This document shows positions 1,203 through 31,366 of a stretch of 64,000 nt of DNA, piece after piece. The notes under the pieces are model-generated. The model was not told where the DNA came from and did not search any database. It was given only the letters and a program-made list of their open reading frames with translations. The translations under genes were made by a program, and so were the position numbers. Source of the stretch: Enterococcus moraviensis ATCC BAA-383 (GTDB lineage: Bacteria > Bacillota > Bacilli > Lactobacillales > Enterococcaceae); assembly GCF_000407445.1 (NCBI RefSeq), contig NZ_ASWB01000001.1:1-64000 (forward strand), written 5' to 3'. Positions within the stretch are counted from its first letter, which is position 1; the number at the start of each line of letters is the position of its first letter.

Positions 1203-1206
1203 TTCT

Positions 1207-2537: not shown

Positions 2538-5500
2538 GTGATAAATATATTAAGGGGCAAGCAAACTGTTTTGGAAGAAAAAAAACTTATCAGTCAAACA
2601 ATCATTCAGTTGTTTGAGCAACAAGTTTTTTATAATCCAGAAAGAGTGGCCATTCGTTACTTAGGAGAAGAAGTGACATACGCACAATTGAATGAACGTG
2701 CGAATTATTTAGGAGATAAACTTAGAAAATTTGGTGTACAAGCAAACGATGTCGTAGCTATTTTGTCCAAACAGAATTTGGATATGATTGTTGCAATAAT
2801 AGGTGTTTTAAAATCAGGTGCTGCATATTTACCAATAGCATTAGATACACCGATTAATCGTATTAAATATATTTTAGAAGATAGTCAGTCAAAAATAGTC
2901 TTAACGAACAGTAAAGACGATCTGATTAAAGAAAATCTAAATATTCCTTTTGTAACAATAGACCAAGAGAAAACACTAAAGGATAATTTACCGATTATTA
3001 ATACACCTAATGATTTATTGTATGTTATTTATACGTCAGGAACAACAGGAAATCCAAAAGGTGTGATGATCGAAAATAGAAATCTTGCTAACACGATAAA
3101 TTGGCGTATCCAAACAGGTAGCGTTACAAATCAAAGTGTATTCTTACAAAAGTCTGCCTACGTGTTTGATGTCTCTGTGGGAGAGATATTTTCAACGTTA
3201 TTAGCGGGTGCAGAATTACAATTATTATCTGAAGAACAAAATAATAATTTTGAAGAACTAGTAAGTGTAATTTACGAAAGTAAAGTCACACATATATCTA
3301 TCGTTTCAACATTTTTCTTTGAACTACTTGAATACTTAAAAGAAAATAATACTGCCTGGAAATTGGATTCTTTGAAGACTATCTACCTTGGTGGGGATTC
3401 AGTTACACTTTCCTTGTTAAATAAATACCGTGAAGTCATGACTTCAGATCCGAATTTCAGTAAATTATTTAATGAGTATGGACCAACAGAATGTACAATT
3501 ACTGCCACATCATGCCATTTAAAAGACTTTAGTGGCAATACTATGACAATAGGGAAACCCATTTCCAATACGACTGTACTGATTCTTAATGACGAAGGGG
3601 AGCAATGCCAAGAGGATGAAATTGGTGAGCTTTGTATCGGGGGTGCCGGCGTTTCTAGAGGGTATTTAAACCATCAAGAATTAACAGCTGAGAAATTCAT
3701 TGAAAATCCTTTTAAACAAGGAGAAAAATTATACCGAAGTGGTGACTTAGCGAAATACGCAAGTGATGGAAATATTATTTTTCTTGGGAGAATGGATGAT
3801 CAAGTAAAAATTAGAGGATACCGAATTGAATTAGATGAAATCAAAGATGCTTTGTGTGAATTACCAGAAATTGATTCCGCAGCAGTTTCTATATGGGAAA
3901 AAGATGGTAGTCAACACTTATGTGGATATGTTGTTTTTTCAAAAGATCGCCAGTTAACACGACAACAAATCAATAAGAGGTTATCCACTCGACTTTCTAG
4001 CTATATGATTCCGACGTTTATTGTACCAATCGATAAAATACCTTTAACAGTCAATGGGAAATTAGATAAAAGAAAATTACCAGCACCTGAAATGGCTCAA
4101 TCAAAAGAGATTGTGTTGCCGACGACAAAAGAACAAGAAATTACAGTTCGAGTTTTTAAAGAGATTTTAGGAATAAATGAAGTTAGTATTAACGACAGCT
4201 TTTTTGAATTAGGTGGCGATTCCATCAAGGCAATTCGAATGATCTCTAGATTTAGAAAATATGATTATAGTATTGATTTACCGACGATTATGGAAAGCCG
4301 TTACGTAGAAACAATTAGTGAAAAAATCGCACAAATTGTTACAACGTCTGACAGTTATGATGAAGTGACTGGCGACGTTTTACTGACACCAATTCAGAAA
4401 TTGTTCTTTAAGAGTAAGCTGAATGAACCACAGCATTTTAATCAATCATTTTTACTTGAAAGTCAGGAGAGACTTCAAAAAGAGCCATTGGAAAATGCAT
4501 TTCAGGTATTATTGTCTCACCATGATATGTTAAGAGCGGTTTATCCAAACGATGCTCAAACTATCTTATCTCTTAAAGAGTCAAAAACTGTACCAATCGA
4601 GTACTTCTATTTTCCAGATATTGAAGAAGACGAAGAAATAAAAATGCAAATAGAAGCGGCAAGTAACCAGTATCAGGCTAGCTTAGATTTGGCTACGGGA
4701 CCTCTAGTTAAGGCGCTATGTTTTTCAACAAAAAGAAGAGATTTTTTATTGGTCATTATTCATCATTTAGTTGTCGATGGAATTTCTTGGCGAATTATTG
4801 TTGAAGATTTGAATACGAGCTATCTTGCTGCAAAAGAGCAACAAGAAATTATCTTACCTGCTAAAACCGACTCTTTCCAAAAATGGTGTGAGTTACTCGC
4901 TCAATATGGCAAAAGCTATCGTGTGCAACAAGAACTTCCATTATGGGAGGAAACGGTAAAATCAATTGAAAAATCAAGAATTAGTGATGTAGAACTTGAT
5001 TCGATTCCATCAGAATTGAAATTAAAAACACTTCATTTTGATGCAGATATAACAAATAACCTGTTGTATGAAGCTGGAAAGTCTTATAATCTTGAAATCA
5101 ATGATCTTTTGCTAACAGCTCTATTTAGAACGGTGAATAAATTGGCTTCATCTTCTACTGTTTCAGTACAATTAGAAGGACATGGAAGAGAAATCATTGA
5201 CCAAGGAGAATCAATCGATAGAACAGTAGGCTGGTTTACGATTATGTATCCTATTACTGTCAATAATATTGGTAGATCTCTTGCAACTGATTTGAAAAAT
5301 ACCAAAGAAACATTGAGAAGAATTCCAAAGCATGGTATTGGCTATGGTGTCTTGTGTGAACAGTATCCACACTTAGAACAAGATCAAGCTGAAATTACGT
5401 TTAACTATTTAGGTGTGTTCAATGAGGAAGCCGATTCAGATTTAATTAAAATCGATACCGTTGAATTTGGCAACCAAGTATCATCTAAGAATCGCTTTGG

Positions 5501-8500
5501 AACAAAAATTAACATGGATAGCTCTGTTTCTAATGGTGAGCTGATTCTGAATATTTCTTATGATGCGGCATTTTTCAGCGAAGAATTGGTTATGGCGTTA
5601 CAAGAAACCTATTATAGTGAACTTCTTGCTGTTGTTGAGCACTGCCTAAGCGTAAATGAAACAGAATATAGTGCTTCTGATTTTGGTGAATTGGAATGGT
5701 CACAGCAAGAGTTTGATAGAGTCAATTTAGAAATCATCCAGAAAAAAGATCGCATTCAAAAAATCTTCCCCCTAACAACGATGCAAGAAGGAATGCTTTT
5801 CCATAAATTAATAGATGAAGCGTCTACTAGTTATGTTGTTCAGAATAATTTTAAAATAGATGGAACAATCGATTATAATTCTCTGGTAGATAGTTTAGAT
5901 ATATTAGCAAAAAAACACAGAATACTGCGGGCGATGATCAAGTACAAAGGTGTGAAAGAGCCTAGATTGGTCATTTTAGAAAATAAACAAATTGAGTCTC
6001 AATATGTTGATATTTCAGCAGATCTTCAACCAGATAAACAAATCGAAAAGTTAAAGGAGCAAGATTTAGCTCGTGGATTTGATTTAGAAAACGATGCTTT
6101 GTTCAGAATTAGGTTTATCAAAACGTCGGATAATCAAAGTCATTTGATTATGAGCTTTCACCATATAATTTTGGATGGTTGGTGTTTAGGTCCATTACTC
6201 TCTGATTTAAATGATTTTTATACAAAATTGAGTAATGGGATGACAAAAGAAGAACTAATCAAACAAATTCCAGAAGATACGAGCTATGAAGACTATTTAA
6301 AAGTCATGAATCTAAAAGATAAGGAAAAAGCTCTAGAGTATTGGACGAATTTATTAGCTGATTATAGTGAGACGGCAACCATTATCCCTGAAGGAAATCC
6401 AATCAAGTCAAATGAAGAAGTTAGACTGATTCAGCAAGTTTTAACGACACAGCAGTATGATAAGTTAAAACAGTTTAGTCAAGAAAATGGTCAAACAACT
6501 AGCTCTGTTATTGAGTCAGTTTGGGGAACTGTTTTAGCAGCGTACAATAATACCGATGATGTTGTATTTGGAAAAGTAGTCTCTGGTAGAAATGTAGATG
6601 TCAAAGATATTGAAAGTGCATTAGGCTTGTTTATTAATACGATTCCAGTAAGGATGAAATTTGAAAAACACCAGGCGTTTATTGATGTAGTTAAACAGCT
6701 GCAAAAGCAATCATTTGAAAGTGAAAAATATGATTACTGCTCGTTGGTTGAAATCCAAAATGAAAATTCATTGGGGCAAGATCTTTTTCAATCGATTGTT
6801 GTTTTTGAAAATGAGTATCATTCAGAAGAAGACAGTTACTTGAAGTTCAAACCAGAAGGAATTAGAGAACAGACAAACTATCCAATAACGGTTAGTGTGG
6901 TTCAAGGCGAGACATTAAATCTAAGAATATCATATGATACAGAGCAATATAATCAAAAAGAAATGGTACAAGTTTTAACTCACTTTACCAATGCGTTACT
7001 TCATGTTTTAGAACAACCAAATAAAGCTATGGCTGATATTAGTCTGATGGATAGTGAAGAAGAGAATATAGTGTTGAACAGATTCAATCAGACTAAGGTG
7101 GAAAATAAATCTATTACATTTATTCAAGCATTTAATGAACAAGTGAAAAAAACACCAAATAGTCCAGCAATAAGAATCGCCAATGAAACAATCACCTATT
7201 TAGAGTTAAATGAAAAAGCGAATGCATTAGGAAAACAATTACGAGCAAAAGGTGTTGGCCGTGACTCTATTGTAGGTATTTTGGCCGATAGATCACTAGA
7301 AATGATTATTGGTATGTACGGTATCCTGAAAGCTGGTGGGGCATATCTTCCGATTGATCCAGGCAATCCTATAGATCGAATTGAGTATACAATAAAAAAT
7401 AGTGAAGCGTTGCTCTTGTTGGTGGATGCTCCAAATGCAGAGTTGGTTAAAACTATAGAGGTTGAACAAATCGTCTTAACGGATATACAAAGAGAATCAG
7501 AAGATTTAATGGTGATCAATCAACCAAACGATTTAGCCTATGTTATTTATACCTCTGGTACGACCGGAATGCCAAAAGGAGTAATGGTAGAACACCGGAA
7601 TTTAGTGAATAGTTTAAATTGGCATATCAAAGACTCTTTTATTAAGAATGACAGTGTGATTTTACAAAAATCCAGTTTTGCATTTGATGTATCCGTTGCT
7701 GAAATTTTTACATGTGGACTGACAGGTGCGTGTTTGCAGTTGCTTACAACGGAAGAAAATGACAATTTTAGTCTTTTGGCTGGTGTTATTGAAAAAAATC
7801 AAGTGACCCATTTCTTTATGGTCTCTACATTATTTACTGTATTTTTGGATTATTTAGCTGAAATCGATAAGAAAGCTGTTTTATCAAGTTTGAAACATGT
7901 TTATCTTGGCGGTGATAAAATGACGCTAGATATGATGAGTAAATTGAATGATCAATACAAAGAATATTCGTTTACTATCAGTAATGCTTATGGGCCAACA
8001 GAATGCGCGATTGCAGCAACCTCTTACAAAATGACATCATTTGTTGAAGAGGGAATCCTACCGATCGGCAAACCAATCGATAATGTAAAATTATATGTAA
8101 TGAATGATGGGAAACTTTGCGGTATTGGCATGCCAGGGGAACTGTTCATTGGAGGTGCTGGTGTATCAAGAGGTTATCTTAATAATGAAACACTGACACA
8201 CAAAATGTTTACTGAAAATCCATACTGTGAGGGTGAACGAATCTATCGTACAGGAGACTTAGTTCGCTGGTTGGGTGATGGAAATATTGACATTCTAGGA
8301 AGAATAGATGAGCAAGTAAAAATTCGTGGATTTAGGATTGAACTTGGAGAAATCAAAACAAAATTGACAGAGTTTCCTGCAATTACAGATGCAGCCGTTA
8401 TTATTCAAGAAGTCAACGGAAGTCATTTGTTAAATGCTTTTGTTGTAGGCGAACAGCTAGATGTACACGCTATAAAAGAACAACTGAAGAAACTGCTCCC

Positions 8501-11500
8501 TGCATATATGGTACCTGATTTTATCCAAGAAATTAATGAAATCCCAATCACAAGAAATGGAAAGTTAGATAAAGCTAAATTGCCAGTACCAGAAATCAAG
8601 CAAGATAAAGAAATTGTGTTACCTCAAAGTCCAATAGAAGAAACGATCCATAGACTCTTTAAAGAAATTCTAAATGTGGAACAAGTTAGTATTCATAATA
8701 GTTTCTTCGATTTAGGAGGTCATTCTTTAAAAGCAATTCGTTTAGCGGGTGCAATTGAAAAAGAGTTACACGCACAATTGTCTATTGGCGAGATTTTAGA
8801 AGCTCAAACAATTGAACAAATAGCAAAAAAAGTGCAAATCAAGCAAAAAGAATATGCTGGCTATCAAAAATTAGAGAAAACTGATTACACGGAAATGAGT
8901 TCAGTACAACGTAGGCTATATGCATTAAATCAATTGGAACCTGAAAGCATTTTATATAATGTACCCGTAATAATGAAAGCAAATGGTAACATTGACAAAT
9001 TGGACCTACAATGCGCATTAGAAAAATTAATAGCCCGTCATGAGCCATTAAGAACTGTTTTTTCACTAGAGAATAATCAATTTCTGCAAACTGTTTTGGA
9101 TAATGCTCACATTGATGTTTTAACAGAAGAAATAGAGGTTGAAGAAATAAACGATCAAATCAATAAATTTATTCAGCCTTTCGACTTGAGTAAAGCACCA
9201 TTATTTAGAGCAAAAGTCTTTTATTTATCAGATAATACCTCAATTTTAGCTCTTGATTTTCATCATCTTATTTTTGATGGTGGTTCACTTCCGTATTTAT
9301 TACAAGATTTATCTAGTTATTACGGAAATGAAGAATTGATACCATTGGAATATCAATACAAAGATTATTGTGCGTATGCAAGTAAACAAGAGTTAGACGA
9401 ACAAGAGCAATTTTGGCTGAAGGAATTTGAACAAGGGATAGAACGAATGAACATCCCAACTGATTTTTCTAGACCTGCTACTCAAAGCTTTAACGGTCGC
9501 ACGGTGAATGGAAAACTCGATTCAAAAATTAAAGAAAATGTTCAATTATTATCAAAACAAACGAATATGACGGAGTATGCAATTATCCTTGCAGCCTTCA
9601 ATTTATTACTATCTAGGTATTGTCAAACCAATGACGTTATCGTCGGTGTACCCGTATCTGGAAGAACACATCCAGATATTCAAGATATGATTGGGATGTT
9701 CGTCAATACACTTGTATTAAAAAATCATGTAAATGAAGAAGAGACCTTTGAATCATTTGTCAAAGACGTTCAAAACAGAAGTTTAATTGCTTTTGAACAT
9801 CAGGATTATCCATATGAAGAGTTAGTCAAGCAGTTGGAACCTGAAAGAGACCAGTCTCGTAACCCACTCTTTGATATCATGTTTGCTTTTGAAAAAGAAG
9901 GAGATCAAGCAATTCAACTAGGGGATCTTCAATTAGAAGAACTATCGATCGATGGAGGAATTTCTAAATTTGATTTGACTTTAAACATTCATGAACGAAA
10001 AGATAGCTATGAAATGTTTTGGGAATATAACACAGACTTATTTACAGAAATAACGATTCAAAACATCATGAATAGTTTTTGTACGATTCTTGCAACTGCA
10101 CTCAATAACACACAAATGGAGTTGAACCAAATTCCATCTTTGAGTCAGAAAAAACAAGCAGAAGTTTATGAAAGTTTGAATGATACAAAAACAAAATTAC
10201 CTGAACAAACATTGATGGAACTTTTTGAAAAAACAAGTATGGCTAAAGCTAAGAACAAGGCTATTTCGTATGGTGATACGATTATGACCTATGCCGAAAT
10301 GAATCAAGCGTCGAACCGTATTGCACACAAATTAAAAGAACTTGGTTTTGGGACTAAAGACCATATCGGAATCGAAGGTCATAAAAATATTGAAACGATT
10401 ATAGGGATTTTAGCTATCTTAAAAGTGGGTGGCGCTTATGTTCCACTCGATCCTAAAAATCCTATAAGTCGACAAGAGCACATTATTCAAGATAGTGAAA
10501 TCAAAATTGTCTTAACGAGTGATGAAGAGTCACCGCTAAATAATTTAGTGGAGATCTTAGGACTCGATTTAGCTCAATTTGATTATTGTCCAAATGAAAA
10601 TCTTGAAATAACAGCAAACCAAGAAGATACGGCTTATATCATCTATACCTCTGGAACAACAGGCTTACCAAAAGGGGTAGAGGTAACACACAAAAATATT
10701 ATTAGATTAGTTAAAAATACTAATTTAATAGAGGATACCGACTTAAATATTTTACAAACCGGATCATTAGCGTTTGATGCTTCAACATTTGAAATTTGGG
10801 GTTCGTTATTAAATGGTGGAAGTCTTACAATGATCGACCAAACGACTCTATTTGATACGACGCTTTTGTCTAATGTAATCAAAGAAGCAAAAATTGATGC
10901 CATGTTTATGACAACGTCATTGTTTAATCAATTGGTTTCAGAAGATGTGCATGTTTTTGATCATCTGGGAATGATTATTGTCGGAGGTGAGAAGCTTTCT
11001 GAGTACCACGTCCAACTATTAAGGGATAACAATGCAACAATCCAAATTAAAAATGGTTATGGTCCAACTGAAACGACTACATTTGCCTTAACTTATACAG
11101 TTGGAGAAACGATTCCAGAACCAATCCCAATTGGGGCGCCAATCGGAAATACAACAGCCTATGTCGTTTATAAAGACAATTTATGTACGATAGGAATGCC
11201 AGGTGAGTTATATATTGGCGGAGCTGGTGTGAGTAAAGGCTATTTAAATCAAGTTGAATTAACAGCAGAAAGGTTTGTTTCACATCCTACTTTTGCAACG
11301 GATGAAGATTATCTTTATCGTACGGGTGACTTAGTAAAAATCAATGCAGATGGTTTGATTGACTATTTAGGAAGAATTGATGAACAGGTCAAAATTCGGG
11401 GTTATCGAATCGAACTAAGTGAAATTTCAAAACAAATCAATGAACTACCTAATGTTTTAGAAACGTTGACAATTGTGAACGAAGCATCTGGCACAAAAGA

Positions 11501-16451: not shown

Positions 16452-16453
16452 TT

Positions 16454-22400: not shown

Positions 22401-25400
22401 CTGAAAATGACACGCAAAAGATAATTTGTGGCATATTCAGTGATGTTTTGTCAGTAGTAAAAGTTGGTGTAGATGATAATTTCTTCGAACTTGGAGGAGA
22501 TTCTATCAAGGCAATCAGCATCGTATCAAAACTACGAGCAGCTGGATTTGAAGTGAGCGTAATGGCTATCATGAGTGAGCGAACAATTCGTAAGATTGAA
22601 CGTAAAACAAAGGTGATTACAAAAGCAAGCATGATCGATCAAGGAATGGTAACAGGTAAAACAATACTTTCACCAATACAACAACTATTTTTCAGTAAAC
22701 AATTACCAAAACCAAATCACTTCAACCAATCGTTTATGTTTAAGAGTAAAGAACCCATTCAAAAGGAGAAACTACAACAAACAGTCAATATCTTAATAGC
22801 ACATCATGATGCGTTAAGAACAAGATTTGATGGAACAACTCAAGAAGTATTGGCCTATCAAGAAGACTCAAATTTCTTATTTGATTACCACGATTTAAGT
22901 GAGATAACAATTGACGATGATGTTATGACTGAAATTCAGAGAATAAGCACTCGCGCGCAAGAGACACTGAATATTGAAACTGGGGAATTAGTCAATGTTC
23001 AATTATTTCACACAAATGATCAAGATTATCTGTTAATGATTGTTCACCATCTAGTAATTGATGGCGTTTCATGGCGTATATTGATTGAAGATTTTAACAC
23101 GGTCTACCATGCTTTAACAACTGAAAATCAGTATTTGTTACCAGAGAAAACGACTGCATTTATTCACTGGACGGATGCCTTAAAAGAATATAGTAAGTCA
23201 GAAGAAATCATAAAGGAACGACCTTATTGGCAAAAAATCGAAACAAGTATCAAAGAGGCAATGCCTGATGAAAATGAGACGCATTCTCTTGAACAAACAG
23301 TTGAAGAAGTGGAAGATGATCTGTCAATAGCATTAACTAGAAAATTACTCTATGATTCAACTTTTGCGTATGATACTGAAATCAATGATCTGTTATTAAC
23401 GGCTGTGTCTAGAGCTGTCGGTGAAACGATTGGAACCAATGCTGTTTCTTACTCGATGGAAAGTCATGGACGTAGAGAATTAGGCGAAAACAAACCATTG
23501 ATCGATCGAACACTAGGGTGGTTCACTAGCATTTACCCTGTCGTATTTACTGGTATCGGACAAACAATTGCAGAGGATATCGAAGTAGTGAAAAAGACTC
23601 TGAAAGAAGTACCTAATCAAGGATTAGGTTACAGTTTATTACAAACATACGGAGAGTTGCCTTTGGAAAATATTGAGCCTGAAATCACGTTCAACTATTT
23701 AGGTGATTTGGAATCAATGAGTAACCAATCAAACTTTTTACAGATTGCAAAAGTGCGACATGGTGAAGACATTTCTGAAGTGAACCATTTTGGAACACCA
23801 CTTTTGATCAACACGGTTGTTATTGAAGGTCGTTTACACATTCAAATGAGTTTTAATCAAAAAAGATATAAAAAAGAATTGATTGATCAACTGATCAAGA
23901 ACATTATGACACAACTGGAAGCAGTGATTTTACACTGCAGTAAGCTGAAAAATGAACGTGGAGCAAATCCGCTTGAATCCTTTATAACGAGTGAATATGA
24001 CCGTCAAAGTATCTACACGTCCTATTCAATTGAAGGAGAAGTTTGTCGATTATTATTTGTTGAAAACTTAACACTAGAATTTTATCGTACGTTACAATCA
24101 GCTCTTGCAAAAGGAAAGCTTGTTGAAGTACCTGATTATTTTGTTGATTTAGACAAGTATGAGGATCAGTTAGCATTTTCAACTCGAAGTGAATTAGAAG
24201 CATTTGTGAGGTCGCCAAATATGCTGGAGACATGTACGTTTGCTGGCTTTGATTTTAGTGACCATGAGATTGAGCATAAGTATCCTGCTGCAACGATCCA
24301 ACGTAAATATTTGGAGCAGTTTAATGACACGATTGTCTCTCATGTTTTGACGATTGATGGATATTATCCTAAAGATAAATTAATCAATGGAGTCAAAGAA
24401 ATTATCAGAACGCAACCGTCACTGAGATCTTCTTATAGTCAACAAGAAAATCAAATGACGATTGTTGAGCATGCTTTTTCGAATGAATGGCCAGTTACGT
24501 ATGTGAACAATAGTTATGGTGAAGTCCTTGATCCAATAAATTCAAGTAGTCTTCATACAGATAGCGCCATGCAAGTATTAAGTAGCATCACACTAGTCAA
24601 AGTATCTGAAAAACGACATCAGGTTCACATTAATGCTTCTCACAGTATTTGGGACAAAACCAGTTCGACAATAATTGAACAATTGTTAGTACAATATTTG
24701 CAACATGAGACGCCCCAAACGCTAGAGATGCATGAAGGTCTTAGACACTATGCAACCAATGTGGAACAACGAAAGAATTCAAATAAGAATCAAAAAATTG
24801 TTACTGATTATCAACTAGCTTCATTTAGTCAACTTGCGGATCAGTTTCTTCTGGAAAATAAAGAAAACTCTCTCTCTCAATCAGAGTTTGTGGTTTTAAA
24901 ACTAGGGAAACATCTGAATGAATTTTATGAAAATAATACTTGGGGATTATTAACCTATTTCATGAAAATCATTGCAAAAGAGAGTGGGATGATCAAGCAT
25001 CAAGAGTCCAAATTACCGTTTTATATTTTACAAGAAAATAGACGTTATTTAGGAAAACAATACCTGGAATCTTTAGGAGCATTCTTAGATTGTATACCGA
25101 TTGTGATTGATCAAGAGCATAGTGAAAATGATTCGAAAATACATGAAAATGTTACCCAAATTCAGCACTTAATGTCTGATATGAGTGTAATGGACATTTT
25201 GGAAGAAGAACAACCATTACCAATCGATAAACTAATCTCAATCAATAATCAAAGTGCTTTTGGGTTAACGTTTGATCAGTTTAAAGACCTTCAATTACTT
25301 TTTGAAGAAAATGAGATTTGTTCATACGAGGTGTTGGTAAATAAATACTTGAATAATTTAGTCTTGGGTGTTCCTAAGACAATGAAAAACCAACGGAAGA

Positions 25401-25462
25401 TGCAACAAGTATTAGAAGAAGAATGTAGTCGTTTGGAAGAAAAACTTAAAAAAAGTGAATGA
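16454..25462 (+). CDS. Non-ribosomal peptide synthetase, modules 5-6 plus terminal C-like domain
   Basis: A 3002-aa second synthetase. Approximate domains: C5 5-430 (HHIIFDG), A5 450-940, T5 950-1020 (GGHS), C6 1040-1470 (HHIIFDG), A6 1490-1970, T6 1980-2045 (GGDS), E6 2065-2485 (HHLVIDG, ESHGRRE), a linker of about 110 aa, then a divergent condensation-like domain (about 2590-2990) with SHSIWDK at 2729-2735 where HHxxxDG is expected; the second His and the Asp remain. There is no thioesterase or reductase at the end, so this domain is the only candidate for product release. Codes by eye: A5 DAFIYGLICK (unassigned, hydrophobic), A6 DAFFLGITFK (Ile-like, identical to A4). C5 and C6 are LCL type. 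The TTG start follows NRPS1 by 2 nt, with GAGGAGG 10 nt upstream; an ATG six codons later is too far from it. The first residues are basic (MQKK), a possible electrostatic match to the acidic tail of the first protein. Confidence 0.96.
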   Translation: MQKKYLMSAAQQRLFAIDQLQEQNTTYNVPIIMKVENQLDIERLTRVINQLCERHEILRTNFSVMDGKMVQMVSSERTIEIDYMKGEENQIEQVIGHFVKSFDLTKDPLLRVCLFEYAPNESLLMFDFHHIIFDGESMYPFFSDLVKLYNEETLPDLKLQYRNFSSWHNKLDISCQKEYWLNELSGDLPVTEIPTDYPRPKEKVYTGKSLTTEFDRESYQKVKQLALKFETTEYVILFTIFMVLLSKYSNNREVMVGSPVSGRTHPDVQEMIGMFVNTVVIRETFEKDDTFRDAVKKVKEKFLTAYENQDYAFDALVEDLDIKRDSSRNPLFDYTFVYQKGNTETLQLGEAILSDYPLEPSVSKFDLTLTASDIGENYLFNLEYCSELFEPHTIERFAKHYMNLIHSTLKDDSQLIDKLSYIDNEEYRQLVSQCDQISYPVSKMNSIIEQFESIVEKNPNQYALCLQGQKLTYGELNEKANSVGAKLRAEGIGREDIVALVMDRSFEMILGILGILKAGAAFLPIAEDAPLSRIEFILADSQAKMIITDQKNESTVNLLKNKAVYVLKESETSKIENLSKINQPEDLAYIIYTSGTTGNPKGVMIENRNVLNLFDWLIPFSEVSSNSVILQKATYTFDAFVFELFWALLSGVQLQLLTSEENKDYSHLLRVIKENKVTHAIMIPTMFSSLLDYIRVKGYAHEFASLEKIYFGGEALTKNLVENYRNLVGSDACHLGNLYGPTETTICATGFMIPEKIESENIPIGTTVNNVHAYIMSNGELCGIGVPGELCISGKNNARGYLNLPEMTKEKFSVDPFDPEGTLYHTGDLARWRSDGQLECLGRIDEQVKIRGFRIELSEIETRLKEISAVQDATVIAKKITDVTDDLQLCAYIVVSSELEITQIKERLKQELPDYMVPPYIMIVDEIPITKNGKVDKANLPLPKIQELRTYILPSTETEKRILAIFQEVLGIDKISIHDSFFELGGHSIKAMKLASLLQKEFEIPVSLRDILEQETIAKIAQRLDQKEKVTKNGITKATNDFDEMSSVQKRIFAIEQSTPSNTNYNMPFFMEVIGTIDLSKLNNAFNQLIQRHESLRTIFDVVDGNFHQYVQEKLEITIEQYSVNKEEIDSVTEAFVQPFDLINGPLIRVGFINTESDMAILMIDLHHIIFDGFSLSLFFDELIKFYDETTLAPLTLQYKDYAAWHKSLDLSQQKQYWLNELKDMGEIAKIPADHMEKDGEKSEGESVTIMLSQAVTDSVKQFAKQQSVTEYMVFLSSFMILLSRYSRQEEVSVGTAVSGRTDQELEKMIGMFVNTVVIKGDIQRTDTFENIVKAMKEKTLKANENQDYPYEKLIELVTKSDEHSRSSLFNIMFSSEVDSMQELQLGQTKLRPIQIDSENVKFDLMFSVNGMNDNYAVMLEYDTRLYKKESMERVGKQFISLMENLIKKPSEQIEKIGVLKSDEIQQLIEENLATNTEWPKDKSVLELFDEQVKRTPEKIALGTDQRRFTYLELNQRANQIAHLLIDLGVQNEEFIGFIADKNSETVPIMLGILKAGAAYLPLDRKNPIERQEYILRDSQTRIILTAEKADKNVYDSLATVVPISDSQLLDRSTENPGIQVSPDQLIYLMYTSGTTGNPKGTMIEHRNVVRLVKNTNYLNFENIRIAQTGSIAFDASTFEIWGALLNGGYVFLADPDVLMDGYLLETTIKEEKIDTIFMTVTLFNQMVLTRITAFDQLEHILVGGEKVSEKHIRLLKNKNKSIEFINIYGPTESTTFALFYPVDQEVPEEIPIGRPIANTTVYVFDGDQLSGFGIPGELYLGGAGLARGYLNQEEMTNDKFIDSPFQADERLYRTGDLVKLNEAHQIEYLGRIDNQVKLRGYRIELDEIKKALLELPKIVEAEVILKTVKESPLLCAYLSQDGGMTESQIDFELRKVLPTYMIPSVIIIMDKLPVNRNGKVDHQALPTPKINENQTQRHYSPPENDTQKIICGIFSDVLSVVKVGVDDNFFELGGDSIKAISIVSKLRAAGFEVSVMAIMSERTIRKIERKTKVITKASMIDQGMVTGKTILSPIQQLFFSKQLPKPNHFNQSFMFKSKEPIQKEKLQQTVNILIAHHDALRTRFDGTTQEVLAYQEDSNFLFDYHDLSEITIDDDVMTEIQRISTRAQETLNIETGELVNVQLFHTNDQDYLLMIVHHLVIDGVSWRILIEDFNTVYHALTTENQYLLPEKTTAFIHWTDALKEYSKSEEIIKERPYWQKIETSIKEAMPDENETHSLEQTVEEVEDDLSIALTRKLLYDSTFAYDTEINDLLLTAVSRAVGETIGTNAVSYSMESHGRRELGENKPLIDRTLGWFTSIYPVVFTGIGQTIAEDIEVVKKTLKEVPNQGLGYSLLQTYGELPLENIEPEITFNYLGDLESMSNQSNFLQIAKVRHGEDISEVNHFGTPLLINTVVIEGRLHIQMSFNQKRYKKELIDQLIKNIMTQLEAVILHCSKLKNERGANPLESFITSEYDRQSIYTSYSIEGEVCRLLFVENLTLEFYRTLQSALAKGKLVEVPDYFVDLDKYEDQLAFSTRSELEAFVRSPNMLETCTFAGFDFSDHEIEHKYPAATIQRKYLEQFNDTIVSHVLTIDGYYPKDKLINGVKEIIRTQPSLRSSYSQQENQMTIVEHAFSNEWPVTYVNNSYGEVLDPINSSSLHTDSAMQVLSSITLVKVSEKRHQVHINASHSIWDKTSSTIIEQLLVQYLQHETPQTLEMHEGLRHYATNVEQRKNSNKNQKIVTDYQLASFSQLADQFLLENKENSLSQSEFVVLKLGKHLNEFYENNTWGLLTYFMKIIAKESGMIKHQESKLPFYILQENRRYLGKQYLESLGAFLDCIPIVIDQEHSENDSKIHENVTQIQHLMSDMSVMDILEEEQPLPIDKLISINNQSAFGLTFDQFKDLQLLFEENEICSYEVLVNKYLNNLVLGVPKTMKNQRKMQQVLEEECSRLEEKLKKSE

Positions 25463-25484
25463 CCAACATTTTAAACAATTTTCT

Positions 25485-25520
25485 TTTTCACCCAAATTTT
25501 TTAACGATTTGGGTGGAAAA
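25485..25520 (+). other. Intergenic hairpin between NRPS and exporter genes
   Basis: TTTTCACCCAAAT pairs with ATTTGGGTGGAAAA (one bulged base) over a 9-nt loop. No T-run follows, so it is not a normal terminator. It could be an RNA-processing or stability element that lowers or separates expression of the transport genes. Confidence 0.55.
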
Positions 25521-25610
25521 GTATCAAGTAAAAGAAGCCTCATACGAAGTGAAGTGTAAACGCCTTTTAATACAGTGCGATGTTAAGTAGAAAAATACAA
25601 GGAGATAATA

Positions 25611-27341
25611 ATGGAGCAAAATATGGAAAAGAAATTCAGTCTATTTAAAAATAATCGATGGTTATTGTTTGCAACAATTGTAGTATCTGTGATTGCACAA
25701 TTGAGTTTAGTTCTGCTAGCACTTTCATTGAAGAGTTTGATGGATGCCGGAACAGCAATGGATCTTCAAGCGTTGTATCGCCAAATATATGTTTGTTTAG
25801 TTATCTTGATTGCAATGACCGTTTTTAGTTATAGTGCGTCACAATTGAAAAATCTTTATATTTATAGAACGATGCGTAAATTTAAAGAAGATATTTTTGA
25901 GGAAGTAATTCACCAAGACTATGTTACGTTTCAAAAAGTGAATTCAGGTAGTTACCTGTCCATGTTAACAAGTGGTTTTCAAAAAATCGATGAAGAGTAT
26001 TTGTCTTCTTTCTTTGAGATCATAAAAAGTGGCGTTTTGTTGGTGTTTGCATTGTTTTCAATGTTTTTAAGTAATTATAAATTAGCAATGATGATCATTG
26101 TTGTTTGTATTCTGCCAATTGCTATTTCGGGATTATTTGCAAAAAAAATGGAACAGGCTCAAACGTTAGAGACAATTAATGATGAAAGTTATATTGCGAA
26201 AGTAAAAGATATTTTGTTGGGATTTTTGGTTATCAAAAGTTTTCATGTAGAGGATCAAATCAAAAAAGATTATATGAAATACAACGAAAAACAAGTGAAA
26301 ACAAAATATTCTTCAAGAAAAATTACAGAGTTGATTATTGCTATTTCAAAAATGTCTAGTTTTTCAGTTATATTTGTGGCGTTAGCTGGTGGTTTGTTTA
26401 TGGTCATCAAAGGGAATGCAACCGTGGGAGATATTATTGCAGTGACACAATTAGTAAACTTTGTTGTTATGCCAATCAATGAATTAGGCGTTCTAATGAC
26501 TAAGTATAAGAGTGGTCAAACAGCGTACAAAAATGTTTTAGCAAGTATTGAACCTAAGCAGACAATTAAACTAACGGATAAAACGGATTTTGTAAAAGAT
26601 ATTCGCTTTAAAGATGTTCAATTTGCATATCCATCTGATGAAAAGAATCCTGTCAATGTATTGAAGAATTTTAATTTTGTTATTGAAAAAAATAAGAAAT
26701 ATGCAGTTGTAGGGTTATCTGGAAGTGGGAAATCGACAATTTTAAGATTATTATTGAGATTTTTTGACATGCAAAAAGGTCAAGGAACACTTGATATTGA
26801 TGGCATGAATATTGCAGATATTTCTCAAGAAAGTATTTATGAAATGATGTCGATCATTCAACAAGATGTGTATGTTTTTGATCAATCGTTAAGAGATAAT
26901 ATCACATTGAACCAAGAATTTTCAGAAGAGGCAATAGAAGAGGCAGTACGTTTATCTGGTATGAAAGAATTTGTTAGCAGAAAACCATTAGGTATCGATA
27001 TGGCCTGTGGAGAAAATGGAAAACTTTTATCTGGAGGAGAAAAACAACGATTGTCGATTGCCCGCTCCTTAATTAGAAAAACACCAATTCTATTGATGGA
27101 CGAAGCAACATCAGCGTTGGATCAGACAACTAGTTTTGAAGTAGAGCAAGCTATTTTAAAAATTCCTCAACTGACAGCAATTGTTATTACGCATAAATTA
27201 AATGGCGAACTATTATCGCAATATGACGAAATCGTTGTTATGAACAATGGCCGAATCGTTGAACAAGGTCCATTTGAACAATTGTTGAAGCAAGAAGGCG
27301 ATTTTTCAAAATTATATCAAGTTGTTCAATTAGAAGATTAA
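25611..27341 (+). CDS. ABC exporter, fused membrane and ATPase domains (peptide export)
   Basis: 576 aa with an N-terminal six-helix membrane domain (about residues 15-310) and a C-terminal ATPase: Walker A GLSGSGKST, Q-loop, signature LSGGEKQ, Walker B ILLMDEATSALD, and the H-loop in ITHKL. This is the half-transporter type of lipid and peptide exporters (MsbA/BmrA class), and it would act as a homodimer in the cell membrane. The start has AAGGAG about 8 nt upstream. Lying directly behind the synthetases and before the thioesterase, it most likely exports the peptide. No peptidase C39 domain is present, so it should not process a leader peptide. Confidence 0.9.
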   Translation: MEQNMEKKFSLFKNNRWLLFATIVVSVIAQLSLVLLALSLKSLMDAGTAMDLQALYRQIYVCLVILIAMTVFSYSASQLKNLYIYRTMRKFKEDIFEEVIHQDYVTFQKVNSGSYLSMLTSGFQKIDEEYLSSFFEIIKSGVLLVFALFSMFLSNYKLAMMIIVVCILPIAISGLFAKKMEQAQTLETINDESYIAKVKDILLGFLVIKSFHVEDQIKKDYMKYNEKQVKTKYSSRKITELIIAISKMSSFSVIFVALAGGLFMVIKGNATVGDIIAVTQLVNFVVMPINELGVLMTKYKSGQTAYKNVLASIEPKQTIKLTDKTDFVKDIRFKDVQFAYPSDEKNPVNVLKNFNFVIEKNKKYAVVGLSGSGKSTILRLLLRFFDMQKGQGTLDIDGMNIADISQESIYEMMSIIQQDVYVFDQSLRDNITLNQEFSEEAIEEAVRLSGMKEFVSRKPLGIDMACGENGKLLSGGEKQRLSIARSLIRKTPILLMDEATSALDQTTSFEVEQAILKIPQLTAIVITHKLNGELLSQYDEIVVMNNGRIVEQGPFEQLLKQEGDFSKLYQVVQLED

Positions 27342-27359
27342 ATCAAGGGGAATCGAAGC

Positions 27360-28040
27360 ATGGCAAAGAAAGTTTACTGTATTCCGTATGCAGGAGGATC
27401 AACATTATTTTATTCAAAGCTCTATCATTATTTGGCTAAAGATATTGAACTTGTACCTCTTGAACTAAGTGGAAGAGGGTTAAGAATGGAAGAACCACTT
27501 TATGAAGAGTTTCAGGAAGCATTAATGGATCTCCACGATCATTTTTTAAAGAATCATCAACCAAATGATTCGTTCATCATTCTTGGTTATAGCATGGGCG
27601 CACTACTTGCTTATGAACTGACCCGAATAATTGAAAAACAAGAAATTTTCCCTACCACCCTGATTTGTGCAGCAAGTGATCCGCCAGGAACTTTAAGAGA
27701 TTTTAGTTCTGTCTCATCATTAACAGATGAACAAATGATCGATTATTATATTAATGCTGGCGGAATGGAAGAATTAACGGTAGATGAAAGAGAACTGATG
27801 AAATGCTTCCTGCCGATTATCCGTAATGATTTGAATATGTTGGGAAACTATCGTCCATCTAAAACAAAACTTTCTACTCCTATGTCGATATATAGTGGTA
27901 AAGCAGATCATCTAAAAGAATTACCTGGATGGACAAATTATGGGGAAAAAATAAGCTATATAACATTTGAAGGAAATCATTATTTTTTGAAAACGAATTA
28001 TCAACACGTGGCGAATGAAATCAATAAATTATTTTGCTAG
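27360..28040 (+). CDS. Type II thioesterase (NRPS editing enzyme)
   Basis: 226 aa, alpha/beta-hydrolase of the GrsT/SrfAD family. Visible are the early IPYAGG oxyanion motif, the nucleophile elbow GYSMGA (Ser), Asp in SGKADH and the catalytic His in GNHYFL. Such stand-alone thioesterases hydrolyse stalled or wrongly loaded acyl groups from carrier proteins. AAGGGG lies about 9 nt before the ATG. It follows the exporter by 18 bp and presumably shares its transcript. It might also take part in product release, since neither synthetase carries its own thioesterase, but this family usually edits. Confidence 0.93.
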   Translation: MAKKVYCIPYAGGSTLFYSKLYHYLAKDIELVPLELSGRGLRMEEPLYEEFQEALMDLHDHFLKNHQPNDSFIILGYSMGALLAYELTRIIEKQEIFPTTLICAASDPPGTLRDFSSVSSLTDEQMIDYYINAGGMEELTVDERELMKCFLPIIRNDLNMLGNYRPSKTKLSTPMSIYSGKADHLKELPGWTNYGEKISYITFEGNHYFLKTNYQHVANEINKLFC

Positions 28041-28057
28041 AAAAAGGGAGTGAGAAG

Positions 28058-28813
28058 TTGACGAATGCAATTGTAACTGAAAATGTCAGTAAAACAATCG
28101 ATCAAAAAAAAATAGTTGATGATATCTCAATTCAGGTAGCGCAAGGAGAGATTCTAGGTATTCTAGGAAGAAACGGTGCAGGAAAAACTTCTCTAATGAA
28201 ACTATTATTGAATATTATTTCTCCAAGCACAGGTACGATCCAATTATTAGATAAAACCGTTACTACACAAGACAATAGTGTATTAGGCGAAATTGGCTGC
28301 TTAATTGAAACGCCAGTGTTTTATAATCAGTTATCTGCTAGAGAAAATTTAGAAATTCATTGTTTGTATATTGATGAAAAACATTGCGAAAATATTTCTG
28401 AAACAATGGCTTTGGTCGGATTAGGTGGAAAAGAAAATGAGTTGGTTTCAAGTTTTTCTTTAGGTATGAAGCAGCGTTTGGGGATTGCAAGAGCGATAGT
28501 GACGAAACCTAAAATTTTGATTCTAGACGAACCTATCAATGGATTGGATCCGATTGGAATGATCGATGTTCGAAATATACTATCTGAAATGAATCAAACC
28601 TATCAAACAACCATTTTGATTTCAAGTCATATCATCACAGAGCTTAGTCAAATTGCAAGTCGAATTATCATCATGGAGGAAGGGAAAATTATCCGTTCTT
28701 TAGACCAAATTGAACTAGAGCGAGAAGAAAGAAGTTTAGAAGAAGTATTTATCGAAATTATTCAGAACTATCAAAATCCAGCCAAAAATTTTGTGAACGG
28801 GGAGAGTCAATGA
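28058..28813 (+). CDS. ABC transporter ATPase (BcrA/lantibiotic-immunity type)
   Basis: 251 aa cytoplasmic ATPase with Walker A GRNGAGKTS, signature SLGMKQR, Walker B ILILDEPINGLDP and an H-loop near SSHII. The closest familiar group is the BcrA / lantibiotic-immunity ATPases that pair with a separate permease. I place the start at TTG 28058, which has GGGAG 7 nt upstream; an earlier in-frame TTG at 28034 overlaps the thioesterase gene and lacks a ribosome-binding site. The stop overlaps the permease start (ATGA). In a peptide cluster it probably removes the peptide from the membrane as self-protection (inference). Confidence 0.9.
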   Translation: MTNAIVTENVSKTIDQKKIVDDISIQVAQGEILGILGRNGAGKTSLMKLLLNIISPSTGTIQLLDKTVTTQDNSVLGEIGCLIETPVFYNQLSARENLEIHCLYIDEKHCENISETMALVGLGGKENELVSSFSLGMKQRLGIARAIVTKPKILILDEPINGLDPIGMIDVRNILSEMNQTYQTTILISSHIITELSQIASRIIIMEEGKIIRSLDQIELEREERSLEEVFIEIIQNYQNPAKNFVNGESQ

Positions 28814-29505
28814 AAGCTTATGCAAAAATCGAGCTAAAAAAAATTAGTTTGAAGAGTCAATTCGTCGGATTATTGATTGCGAATATATTTATTATGCTAC
28901 TTTCAGTATCTTTAGGGATGCTGATTCCCATGTCAGTAGAATTGATGGAAGGAATGAATTTTTCAATTAGTGCGGGTATGTTAGTAGATACGTTGATCAA
29001 AGCAATTTTTATTGTTTGGGAAGCGATCTTGTTGGCAATGCTAATCGTGAGTGAGTTTCAAAATAATACGGCCTTGATGTTTTATACATATCCGGTCCAG
29101 GTCAAAGAAATCATTATGGCAAAAGTTGTGATTGTCCTTTCGATCATAACAAGCTTTATATTTATTTCTGAATTTGTTCAAAATGTTATTTTATACTTAG
29201 TAAGTTTTATTTTTCCAAGTATAAATTATCAATTTAATTTCAGTTTACTTGTTACGATGGTTATTACAACAGTAGGAAGTGTCCTGATGGGATTGATTCC
29301 TTTATTTTTCGGGATGCTCAACAAATCAGTTATTGTTACAGTAACAGTTTCAATTTTTATTATGTGTATTGTTACGTCTTCTGCAGCAGGTCCTGGTGGA
29401 ATTCTGTCAAAAGGAGCAGCAGCTATTTTTCTTGGAATTTTAGGTCTAATAGCTGGTAAAGCAACGTTTTCTAGAATTGAAAAAGAAGATTTTAAATCAA
29501 AATAA
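28810..29505 (+). CDS. ABC transporter permease (partner of the preceding ATPase)
   Basis: 231 aa integral membrane protein with about six hydrophobic segments (near residues 20-38, 65-85, 108-125, 140-160, 170-190, 200-218), a length and layout typical of ABC-2 type immunity permeases such as BcrB. The 4-nt ATGA overlap with the ATPase gene indicates translational coupling and a shared complex. Function in self-immunity or efflux of the cluster product is inferred from context. Confidence 0.85.
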   Translation: MKAYAKIELKKISLKSQFVGLLIANIFIMLLSVSLGMLIPMSVELMEGMNFSISAGMLVDTLIKAIFIVWEAILLAMLIVSEFQNNTALMFYTYPVQVKEIIMAKVVIVLSIITSFIFISEFVQNVILYLVSFIFPSINYQFNFSLLVTMVITTVGSVLMGLIPLFFGMLNKSVIVTVTVSIFIMCIVTSSAAGPGGILSKGAAAIFLGILGLIAGKATFSRIEKEDFKSK

Positions 29506-29536
29506 AAAATTATAGCGATGAGAGGGGCAAAAAGAA

Positions 29537-29755
29537 ATGAGACCAATGATGCCAAAAATGAATAAAGAGATTGTTTTAATGGGGAATTATGTATTTGTAG
29601 TAGTAGGAATTGCTTTGTTTATCATAGGATTGATCATCTATTTGTTAACAAGAAAAAAAGAAAAGAAAGCCTTAAAATATACTGGGCTAGGCATGATGGC
29701 GGTTGGCATTTTATCCGTATTAAACAATATTATTCAATACTTTATTTTTAAATAG
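29537..29755 (+). CDS. Small membrane protein, 72 aa, unknown
   Basis: Two predicted membrane helices (about residues 16-37 and 48-68) joined by a strongly basic loop (TRKKEKKALKY). GAGGGG lies about 10 nt before the ATG. It is the last gene of the peptide operon, 31 bp after the permease. I recognise no family. Small proteins with two helices and a basic loop often accompany antimicrobial-peptide loci as immunity or accessory factors, so that is the leading guess, not a demonstrated role. Confidence 0.75.
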   Translation: MRPMMPKMNKEIVLMGNYVFVVVGIALFIIGLIIYLLTRKKEKKALKYTGLGMMAVGILSVLNNIIQYFIFK

Positions 29756-29782
29756 TAAGATACTTTAGATTCGTAGGTTTGA

Positions 29783-29805
29783 TTATTCGTAATAGGATCG
29801 AATAA
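29783..29805. promoter_or_regulatory. Inverted repeat TTATTCG-N9-CGAATAA before the TetR gene
   Basis: Seven-base arms separated by 9 nt lie in the gap between the last transport gene and the TetR-type regulator, about 50 bp upstream of its promoter. The size fits a TetR-family operator. No identical copy occurs before the synthetase genes, so it may serve autoregulation only. It could also be part of a weak terminator, but no T-run follows. Confidence 0.35.
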
Positions 29806-29853
29806 AGAGACGATAATTAAGACAATTTGTATTATCCATATTTATACTCGTTT

Positions 29854-29882
29854 TTGAATAACACCTTTACACTAGAAATAAT
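29854..29882 (+). promoter_or_regulatory. Promoter of the TetR-type regulator gene
   Basis: -35 TTGAAT (29854-29859), 17-nt spacer and -10 AATAAT (29877-29882), 50 bp before the GTG start. It suggests the regulator has its own transcript. Confidence 0.5.
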
Positions 29883-29931
29883 AAATGCTACGATTTAGCT
29901 ATAAGTAAACTATTAGAACGGAGGCGAGTAT

Positions 29932-30606
29932 GTGTCTAGGAACAAAAATCCAGAAGTAACGATTGAAAAAATTCTAGTGATTTCCGAAAACTTGTTTCAA
30001 ACAAAAGGATACGATAAGACAACTATTCATGACATTATTAGAGAATTAGGAATGTCTAAAGGGGCTATTTATTATCATTTCACTTCAAAAGAGGAAATAT
30101 TAGAAGCCGTTATACAAAAACAATTCAAGAATTCTCATGATGATTTGATCAAGATGATCGGTACGATCGAAGCAGAAAATGCCAAAGAAAAATTAATTAA
30201 GCTGATGAATTTAATCGAGCAAAGAACATCAAAGACCAGAGTGACAGCTGTTCAAGAAGTAATGATCAATCAAGCAAATAATCCTCAATTTGTTATTTCA
30301 GGGATGCAAATAGCTGTGCAACAAGAGGCCCCTTTATTTGCTGAAATCATAAAAGAAGGAATTCAGGATGGTTCATTAGAAACTGAATATCCAAATGAAT
30401 GTGCAGAAATGTTTTTATTGCTGATCAATTTATGGTGTAGTCCATTTGTTTTTGAATCAAGCTTGGAACAAGTGAAGAGTCGTTTGTTATTTTTAAGGCA
30501 TAATATGCAGTTATTAGGGTTAGATATTATTAGTGACCAATTAATTTCAGATTTAATTGGTTTTTATCAAGAAATATACGATGAACATGAAATGGTTGAA
30601 AAATGA
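29932..30606 (+). CDS. TetR/AcrR-family transcriptional regulator
   Basis: 224 aa. The N-terminal helix-turn-helix (about residues 10-58) is typical: ISENLFQTKGYDKTTIHDI, then MSKGAIYYHFTSKEEIL. The C-terminal ligand-binding part is all helical and not assignable to a subtype. The GTG start has GGAGG 7 nt upstream; an ATG two bases earlier is out of frame and stops after nine codons. Being last in the locus and transcribed alone, it is the likely local regulator of the peptide cluster or its transporters, possibly responding to the peptide or an intermediate (inference). Confidence 0.92.
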   Translation: MSRNKNPEVTIEKILVISENLFQTKGYDKTTIHDIIRELGMSKGAIYYHFTSKEEILEAVIQKQFKNSHDDLIKMIGTIEAENAKEKLIKLMNLIEQRTSKTRVTAVQEVMINQANNPQFVISGMQIAVQQEAPLFAEIIKEGIQDGSLETEYPNECAEMFLLLINLWCSPFVFESSLEQVKSRLLFLRHNMQLLGLDIISDQLISDLIGFYQEIYDEHEMVEK

Positions 30607-30683: not shown

Positions 30684-31220
30684 TCACATCTTAGCAAATA
30701 ACGCTTCAACTTGCTCTTCTGCCCACTGACACCAACTCAATTCTTCCTTACACATCCGGATTTTCCTTTGAATAACTAGGAAACGACCAAAGTTTTTTTG
30801 ACGTTCCAACGGATCAGTAATCTGATCGATTTGTTCTTGTTTTTCTTGGTTCCTTTTTAAAATCTTTAGTTGATGTTGTTTTCGTTCAAATAATAATCCT
30901 CTAACAGTATCTTTTTCTAAGATAGCCGCTACATACATTTTAGCGAGAAATTCATCTTTTTGAGAAGGTTCGTTTGTTTCTTCTTGAATCCAGATGCTTA
31001 CAACCTTTTCTCCTTTTTCAGTTAGGTGATAAATTTTCTTTTGCGCATGTTTTTCATCGTTTTCTACGCGAACGTATTCTTCTTTTAATAGTTTAGATAA
31101 AGAGGTGTAGATCTGACTGTGATGTGCTTCCCAGAAAAGTGCTAAATACTGTTTCAATTCATAGCCAGTACAAGGTTTTCGAACTAACATACACAATAAA
31201 ATATAACTAAGAGTATTCAT
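30684..31220 (-). CDS. PadR-family transcriptional regulator
   Basis: 178 aa. The N-terminal winged helix (about residues 1-85) has the PadR pattern: an ILLCML start, GYELKQYL, then SQIYTSLSKLLKEEYV. The C-terminal half is a charged coiled helix region that would mediate dimerisation (PadR_C type). I choose the ATG at 31220, which has AAGGAGCG about 9 nt upstream; a TTG three codons earlier would abut the ribosome-binding site. It is divergent from an MFS transporter gene, and the shared gap holds a perfect palindrome with the PadR ATGT-N8-ACAT signature, so it very probably represses that transporter and itself. Confidence 0.92.
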   Translation of the reverse strand: MNTLSYILLCMLVRKPCTGYELKQYLALFWEAHHSQIYTSLSKLLKEEYVRVENDEKHAQKKIYHLTEKGEKVVSIWIQEETNEPSQKDEFLAKMYVAAILEKDTVRGLLFERKQHQLKILKRNQEKQEQIDQITDPLERQKNFGRFLVIQRKIRMCKEELSWCQWAEEQVEALFAKM

Positions 31221-31300
31221 AGCAAACAACGCTCCTTATTATTTTTGAATCCGCTTATTTTTTTATTATAGCACAAATTATGCTGTTCTTTAGAATGAAC

Positions 31301-31324
31301 TTACATGTCAATATTGACATGTAA
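31301..31324. promoter_or_regulatory. PadR operator, perfect 24-bp palindrome
   Basis: The half-site TTACATGTCAAT is repeated exactly in inverted orientation. The core ATGT-N8-ACAT equals the recognised PadR-family operator pattern. It overlaps the -35 element of the MFS gene promoter, so a bound repressor would block RNA polymerase. Confidence 0.85.
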
Positions 31325-31342
31325 ATAATTTTAGTGTAATTT
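31314..31342 (+). promoter_or_regulatory. Promoter of the MFS transporter gene
   Basis: -35 TTGACA (31314-31319), lying inside the palindrome, a 17-nt spacer and -10 TAATTT (31337-31342). The gene starts 24 bp further on. Confidence 0.7.
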
Positions 31343-31366
31343 TTTATATAGAGAGAAGGGAATTAA

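Follow-up and report, generated by a model that had tools for sequence, protein, structure and literature searches.

A six-module peptide synthetase cluster of Enterococcus moraviensis ends in a condensation-like domain and may make a cyclic hexapeptide

We studied the first 64,000 nucleotides of contig NZ_ASWB01000001.1 of Enterococcus moraviensis ATCC BAA-383 (hereafter, the window), which carry a cluster for nonribosomal peptide synthesis at 2538-30606. The locus is real and intact, and it is a known kind of machine in a new arrangement: two nonribosomal peptide synthetases (NRPSs) with six modules, the second of which ends in a C-terminal condensation-like (CT) domain. In our sample, from enterococci and other Bacilli, CT domains are a group separate from condensation (C) and epimerization (E) domains. 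From the sequence, we believe with moderate confidence that the cluster is functional and restricted to this species, that its product is a hexapeptide whose residues 1, 3, and 6 are in the D form, and that the CT domain releases this peptide as a head-to-tail ring.

Two synthetases with six modules

The open reading frames (ORFs) called across the cluster are all open and on the + strand, and all but one small ORF are long. NRPS1 (2538..16451; 4637 amino acids) has the order A1-T1-E1 / C2-A2-T2 / C3-A3-T3-E3 / C4-A4-T4, where A is adenylation and T is the carrier domain; the domain map has no starter C domain. NRPS2 (16454..25462; 3002 amino acids) starts after a gap of 2 nt and reads C5-A5-T5 / C6-A6-T6-E6 / CT. 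So there are four modules in NRPS1 and two in NRPS2, plus a ninth member of the C superfamily at the extreme C terminus. The map was made with profiles of the window's own domains, and Pfam (E 0.001) agrees with it: in NRPS1 and NRPS2, respectively, Pfam finds 5 and 4 stretches of Condensation, 4 and 2 of AMP-binding, and 4 and 2 of PP-binding, along with AMP-binding_C. It finds no thioesterase domain in either protein at this threshold.

Module 1 (2592..5687) consists of A1 (2592-4097), T1 (4104-4337), and E1 (4350-5687, with HHLVVDGIS and EGHGR). Module 2 (5754..8843) consists of C2 (5754-7079), A2 (7110-8600), and T2 (8607-8843), and module 3 (8877..13253) of C3 (8877-10172), A3 (10203-11675), T3 (11682-11915), and E3 (11928-13253). 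NRPS1 is completed by module 4 (13320..16403), with C4 (13320-14657), A4 (14691-16160), and T4 (16167-16403). In NRPS2, module 5 (16454..19534) holds C5 (16454-17749), A5 (17783-19291), and T5 (19298-19534), while module 6 (19568..23986) holds C6 (19568-20863), A6 (20897-22369), T6 (22385-22618), and E6 (22634-23986, with HHLVIDGVS and ESHGR).

An earlier note on this DNA had claimed two intact synthetases with six modules and with functional-looking C, A, T, and E motifs, and our motif scan bears this out. The core motifs A3, A5, A7, A8, and A10 were found in every A domain, GG[HD]S in every T domain, and HHxxxDG in all five C and all three E domains. The three E domains also retain HHxxxD and the glutamate of E-G/S-HGR. 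The note's inventory was right about the six modules but overlooked the terminal CT domain, and there is no thioesterase in cis.

At its C terminus, NRPS1 has an acidic tail (MELDDEEVF), and the N terminus of NRPS2 reads LQKKYLMS. Acidic tails and similar N termini are also present at the subunit joints of other enterococcal lines, and we suggest that NRPS1 and NRPS2 may dock through them.

The terminal domain belongs to a separate group

The CT domain (24104..25459, + strand), which we propose is responsible for chain release and cyclization, carries SHSIWDKTS. It retains HxxxDxxS, it has lost the first histidine of HHxxxDG, and the glutamate of E domains is replaced by leucine. When searched alone (the last ~450 residues), it has no significant match in Pfam (best E 0.57) and a marginal one in PDB by phmmer (TycC, E 0.07). 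A profile of eight enterococcal terminal domains does better: it matches 33 C-superfamily entries in PDB at E 0.01, of which the best is bacitracin synthase 3 (9rde, E 2e-19), over most of the length of the model. Identity to the window's CT in the eight-row alignment is 15-25%.

We placed these domains in a tree of 102 rows (20 CT, 20 E, and 62 C). Each kind forms one group, with support of 99 for CT, 100 for E, and 99 for C. This was a quick tree with several long branches; it leaves out all rows from G009 (near-copies) and domains that were matched over 350 positions or fewer, and it still holds near-copies from sister genomes. Because two of the 62 C rows repeat domains in overlapping stretches (L045/L046 and L053/L054) and are partial second views, we count 60 C domains. 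All 20 CT domains lie within 110 amino acids of the stop codon, as do 2 of the 20 E domains and none of the 60 C domains. The E-domain glutamate is present in 20/20 E domains versus 0/20 CT domains. (One E row, from L046, lacks HHxxxD.) Among the CT domains, the first histidine of HH is kept in 4 and lost in 16, while all 20 retain the three fixed residues of HxxxDxxS (H, D, S) along with an arginine.

Two other identities for the terminal domain were rejected. It is not a seventh extension C domain, as no A or T domain follows it and it sits apart from all of the C rows, and it is not a further E domain, as it lacks the glutamate.

The loss of the first histidine and the strong divergence of the domain might instead mean that CT is not catalytic and that release is by spontaneous attack or by the stand-alone thioesterase, whose gene lies close by. 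There is a relevant precedent in the thermoactinoamide synthetase ThdA/ThdB of Thermoactinomyces vulgaris, a six-module line that makes a cyclic hexapeptide without a thioesterase; it ends in an E domain, and in the part of the paper available to us, its authors report finding no CT (PMC7253712). So a release route outside of the assembly line must exist in some Bacilli. Nevertheless, the second histidine, the aspartate, and the serine have been kept in every CT domain despite the low identity of these domains to the window's, and we consider a non-catalytic CT unlikely.

At the level of the taxonomic family (1e-6), 15 of 105 genomes have a CT match: full-length matches are in 11 of the genus's 22 genomes (we sampled one genome per species) and in G034, from another genus, and partial matches are in G008, G075, and G076. 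At the level of the order, where no more than four candidates were scored in each genome, 14 of 395 genomes matched, and all of these are Enterococcaceae. At the level of the class (1e-8), 93 of 398 genomes matched, with many of the listed matches covering part of the model. From the genomes with long class-level matches we fetched 11; in 10 of these, an NRPS or hybrid line terminates in the domain, and in the other (G611) the match is fragmentary and sits at the edge of a contig, where no upstream domain can be seen. A scan of genome contigs with the window's CT alone as the query gave no match, while the alignment labeled A2 matched three named enterococci. In PLSDB, the window's CT gave one weak match, from Paenibacillus.

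These results are compatible with a broader claim that we make tentatively and would give somewhat less than even credence: that a family of CT release domains, distinct from C and E domains, closes rings without a thioesterase in Bacilli and above all in this Enterococcus genus, that enterococci use it in several different assembly lines, and that the line described here makes a new class of cyclic hexapeptides from a D-configured chain end.

One bacterial line with an assigned CT function is the epifadin synthetase EfiA-E of Staphylococcus epidermidis, whose CT domain has been assigned ring formation (PMC11310079). By the available part of that account, it resembles our cluster in being a Firmicute line that ends in CT and has genes for a phosphopantetheinyl transferase (PPTase), a stand-alone thioesterase, and an ABC transporter. 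It differs in being a plasmid-borne NRPS-PKS (polyketide synthase) hybrid that forms a tetramic acid ring and has its PPTase in the cluster; the two CTs are compared by description only. Within the genus, G014:C1 (L049, L050) encodes a hybrid line with an open frame of 5395 amino acids, a ketosynthase, extra carrier domains, and a CT at its end. Its CT groups in the tree with CTs of other Bacilli (L090, L094-L096), and this line is possibly epifadin-like.

The proposed product

In the tree, C2 and C4, which come after E domains, fall in one C group, and C3, C5, and C6 fall in another. This split agrees with the positions of the E domains. The group with C2 and C4 has 22 rows (21 domains). In the stretches available, 19 of these domains are preceded by an E domain and one by a T domain, and for one no upstream domain can be seen. 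Because E domains follow the A and T domains of modules 1, 3, and 6, we predict D residues at these positions.

We read nine-position codes for the A domains by alignment, with the pocket positions placed according to the GrsA numbering; the tenth column was one residue off and was not used. The codes are DVGSYGEIT (A1), DVAFYGAIA (A2), DAFFIGGTF (A3), DAFFLGITF (A4), DAFIYGLIC (A5), and DAFFLGITF (A6). Going by reference codes, A3 is presumably Val-like and A4 and A6 are presumably Ile/Val-like. At a guess, the substrate of A5 is aromatic. The codes of A3, A4, and A6 are also similar to those given for Ile/Val in the table for thermoactinoamide, as far as that source was available (PMC7253712).

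We infer the stereochemistry, substrates, ring closure, transport, immunity, regulation, and activity, and the proposed route would run as follows. An unlinked Sfp-type transferase would prime the six T domains. NRPS1, without a starter C domain, would begin on a free amino acid and build D1-L2-D3-L4, and it would pass this tetrapeptide to NRPS2, which would add L5 and D6. The CT domain would then take the peptidyl chain, with its D-residue end, from T6, and the N-terminal amine of residue 1 would attack, which would yield a hexapeptide closed head to tail, whose residues 3, 4, and 6 would be Val/Ile-like. Release by this amine seems the most likely because module 1 has no starter C domain and because the motif of the CT domain is that of CT domains reported to cyclize (PMC11546977). 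The stand-alone thioesterase would clear misprimed carriers and the exporter would secrete the product, while a second ABC pair and a small membrane protein would provide self-protection under the control of a TetR regulator.

Several points weigh against this proposal. The codes of A1, A2, and A5 match no nameable specificity. The 20 CT domains were collected using the profile of eight terminal domains. Related CT domains are also found at the end of hybrid NRPS-PKS lines (Pfam finds ketosynthase domains in three CT-ended proteins that we tested, L050 from G014, L098, and L102), so the type of ring may differ. We found no characterized member of this CT subtype, and a PLSDB search with the CT of G014 returned eight records, none of them from Staphylococcus. 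Fungal CT domains that close macrocycles do share HxxxDxxS, but fungal IvoA (A-T-E-CT) hydrolyzes its product and does not cyclize it, according to the portion of the source available to us (PMC11546977). The fungal domains TqaA and IvoA are likened to the window's CT by motif and position, as C-terminal condensation-like domains with HxxxDxxS, and they are eukaryotic. Because the structure of the TqaA CT (5DIJ) is absent from the 33 PDB matches of the CT profile, a common origin of the fungal and enterococcal types is unsupported.

Given the counter-example of IvoA, the main rival is a linear product: the CT domain would be a hydrolase that frees an uncyclized hexapeptide acid whose last residue is D. 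IvoA has its E domain directly before CT, as NRPS2 does, and an intact HxxxDxxS is compatible with hydrolysis. On the other hand, IvoA is fungal and has a single module, and the free N-terminal residue that follows from having no starter C is what head-to-tail cyclization uses. We do not think hydrolysis very likely. Alternatively, the CT domain could couple the chain to an external amine or to another chain, giving an amide-capped or dimeric product. C-type folds whose HxxxD is intact are able to use acceptors from outside, and some terminal C domains use amine acceptors; the sequence of CT alone does not tell which acceptor is used. But there is no dedicated amine gene among the seven proteins of the unit that we scanned, and such a product seems improbable to us.

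Two further systems come close to our cluster. From the available part of its description, ThdA/ThdB resembles it in having six modules on two NRPSs, three E domains of which one belongs to the final module, residues that are for the most part aliphatic, and no thioesterase in cis (PMC7253712). It differs in that its E domains are in modules 2, 3, and 6 rather than 1, 3, and 6, its modules are split 3+3 rather than 4+2, ThdA begins with a truncated starter C domain, and ThdB ends in E without CT. We rejected the idea that the window encodes a thermoactinoamide-type synthetase, as it lacks the C*-start, the 2, 3, 6 placement of E domains, and the terminal E without CT. The second parallel is a three-gene NRPS in E. 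ureilyticus LMG 26676 (L060), E. ureasiticus DSM 23328 (L059), and Enterococcus sp. BWB1-3 (L058). It also has six modules, an A-T-E start, an E-CT end, and a Val-like last residue, and it has a related ABC pair and thioesterase (seen in the G020:C6 and G016:C65 loci). It differs in having three synthetases (~3150+2530+1880 amino acids) with E domains in modules 1, 4, and 6, a CT that is 24-27% identical to the window's (best tblastn segment), another genomic place, and a linked PPTase.

Priming by an unlinked transferase

The earlier note had supposed that priming depends on an enzyme encoded elsewhere, and a whole-genome check found one. PF01648 has two matches in the source genome (G000): a 118-amino-acid frame at C5:93942, which is the size of AcpS, and a 232-amino-acid frame on C1 (- strand). 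The second of these is the Sfp-type PPTase, whose ORF is at G000:C1:968942-969496, 0.94 Mb from the cluster. It matches Bacillus Sfp in PDB (1qr0, E 6.1e-30) and has GIDIE and W-x-x-KES. Its relatives (E 0.001) are in 13 of the genus's 22 genomes (G000, G002, G004, G006, G008, G009, G011, G013-G016, G019, and G020), and these are exactly the 13 genomes with a Condensation match. The weakest case is G013 (28.6 bits over 111 residues, E 2.3e-6), where the gene adjoins the only Condensation match. The PPTase lies near NRPS genes in several relatives (e.g., G011:C13, G016:C65, G019:C11, G020:C6, and G015:C23) and away from them in G000 and G014. As for MbtH, which the note had also found missing from the window, there is no such gene in any of the 22 genomes, and the same search was positive in the E. 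coli and B. subtilis controls.

Each of the nine Condensation matches in the source genome falls within the cluster, so the cluster is the only NRPS client of the Sfp-type PPTase that we found. This bears on whether the cluster might be silent or decaying, so that nothing is made in this strain. It is seen in just one genome of the genus, and its PPTase is unlinked. But the long ORFs and the scanned motifs are intact across 28 kb, and the PPTase has been retained even though its genome has no other Condensation match. We consider a silent cluster improbable.

We also noticed a lone, low-scoring condensation domain adjoining a short Sfp-like gene at G004:C1:954789-956413, G008:C1:439644-441267, and G013:C1:3421504-3423127. 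This is a second, small type of NRPS-like locus in the genus.

Accessory genes

The accessory genes listed in the earlier note are all there as + strand ORFs at 25611-30606, and Pfam identifies all but the small protein. An ABC exporter with fused membrane and ATPase domains (25611..27341; 576 amino acids) is followed by the stand-alone type II (editing) thioesterase (27360..28040; 226 amino acids). Next come an ABC ATPase (28034..28813), whose best curated match is a lantibiotic-protection ABC ATPase at 206 bits (below the cut-off of 309.75), and its partner, an ABC-2 permease (28810..29505). The unit ends with a small membrane-like protein of 72 amino acids (29537..29755), which has no relatives in the loci that we fetched, and a TetR-family regulator (29932..30606; TetR_N in Pfam).

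Several of these genes have relatives beside other enterococcal NRPSs. The exporter's relatives, over most of its length, are 46% identical at G016:C45 and 29-31% identical at two more loci. Relatives of the ATPase are 41-42% identical (five loci), and those of the permease are 31-34% identical (three loci). The thioesterase has relatives of 23-32% identity at several enterococcal and some other NRPS loci. (In this comparison, L058 and L060 repeat L053 and L044.) TetR is not a useful marker for the cluster: its relatives (1e-25) are in 12 of the 22 genomes, of which 7 have NRPS domains and 5 do not. A comparison of the regions upstream of NRPS1 and tetR, made to look for a common TetR operator, gave just short AT-rich words present in both, the longest of 14 bases.

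Upstream of NRPS1 is a small ORF (2048-2257; 69 amino acids) that looks membrane-like by eye and has no relatives in the loci that we fetched. An inverted repeat lies near 2349, 3' of this ORF, and the terminator scan did not call it. The results of promoter scans were near the level of chance.

Distribution and genomic location

The earlier note considered NRPS loci of this size unusual for enterococci, which is half right. This locus was found only in the source genome, but NRPS loci as such are not unusual: 13 of the 22 genomes hold condensation domains, in several different architectures. Other NRPS loci with different architectures are at G016:C45 (L051), G011:C13 (L047, L048), G015:C23 (L045, L046), and G008:C1 (L052), and the loci in G011 and at G016:C45 have exporter or ABC genes related to the window's. 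In the G015 synthetase (L046:1253-10996), the first C domain is a fragment, the A code (STSLEGAVI) is odd, and the E-like end has no HHxxxD, so it is perhaps a degenerate or unusual module.

The cluster lies in a segment that is absent from relatives. Its left border is a cluster of 13 tRNAs on the + strand (1..1203), the last being tRNA-Leu(CAA), and its conserved right border is padR (-) with an MFS transporter (+) at 30684..32572. The MFS gene is 87-90% identical in seven further genomes with an intact copy and is in pieces in G003. In five of the seven stretches that we fetched (G001, G004, G005, G009, and G019), the distance from the same tRNA cluster to the padR match is 0.36-2.9 kb, versus 29.5 kb in the window; in G008 and G014, the tRNA cluster is not within their 12 kb. 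Four of these five relatives (among L103, L106, L107, L109, and L104) have one large ORF of ~760-820 codons in the gap, whose product, judged by eye, resembles a secreted surface protein, while the gap in G019 (L104) is nearly empty, with a short stretch remaining. The site between tRNA-Leu and padR may be a hotspot for variable genes. Because relatives have the tRNA cluster close to padR without the unit, the locus is either a gain here or a loss elsewhere. A transposon, integrase, or att-flanked island was considered and rejected: there is no integrase among the seven scanned proteins, and there are no exact repeats of at least 12 bases between 1101-1320 and 30501-31300.

The rest of the window is ordinary at first, with two PTS sugar loci, PRD regulators, and a GH1 glycosidase at 32648-43174. 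Farther on, a tmRNA gene (52223-52590) is followed by a tyrosine integrase (52681-53826, - strand), an IrrE-type peptidase, and an HTH regulator, and there are recombination or helicase genes on the + strand at 59516, 61031, and 62603. The region 52223-63782 looks like a prophage or related element that is integrated beside ssrA and runs off the window.

Implications

Enterococci are known for ribosomal bacteriocins. The matches listed in our literature search include no enterococcal NRPS product, and neither these nor the profile libraries contradicted the earlier note's view that the architecture belongs to no described product. A survey of lactic acid bacteria counted 1,333 NRPS clusters (1.0% of biosynthetic gene clusters), and its cultured strains included E. 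ureasiticus DSM 23328 and other enterococci; in the part of it available to us, we saw no NRPS product from those enterococci (PMC10134562).

What makes this locus interesting is not so much its six modules as the CT release group and how such lines are spread within one Enterococcus genus. If we are correct, a group of enterococci makes cyclic peptides that contain D residues, and with the CT group bacterial NRPSs would have a way to release chains without a thioesterase, one that could be addressed with one enzyme. The co-occurrence of PPTase and NRPS genes would provide a simple handle for genetics.

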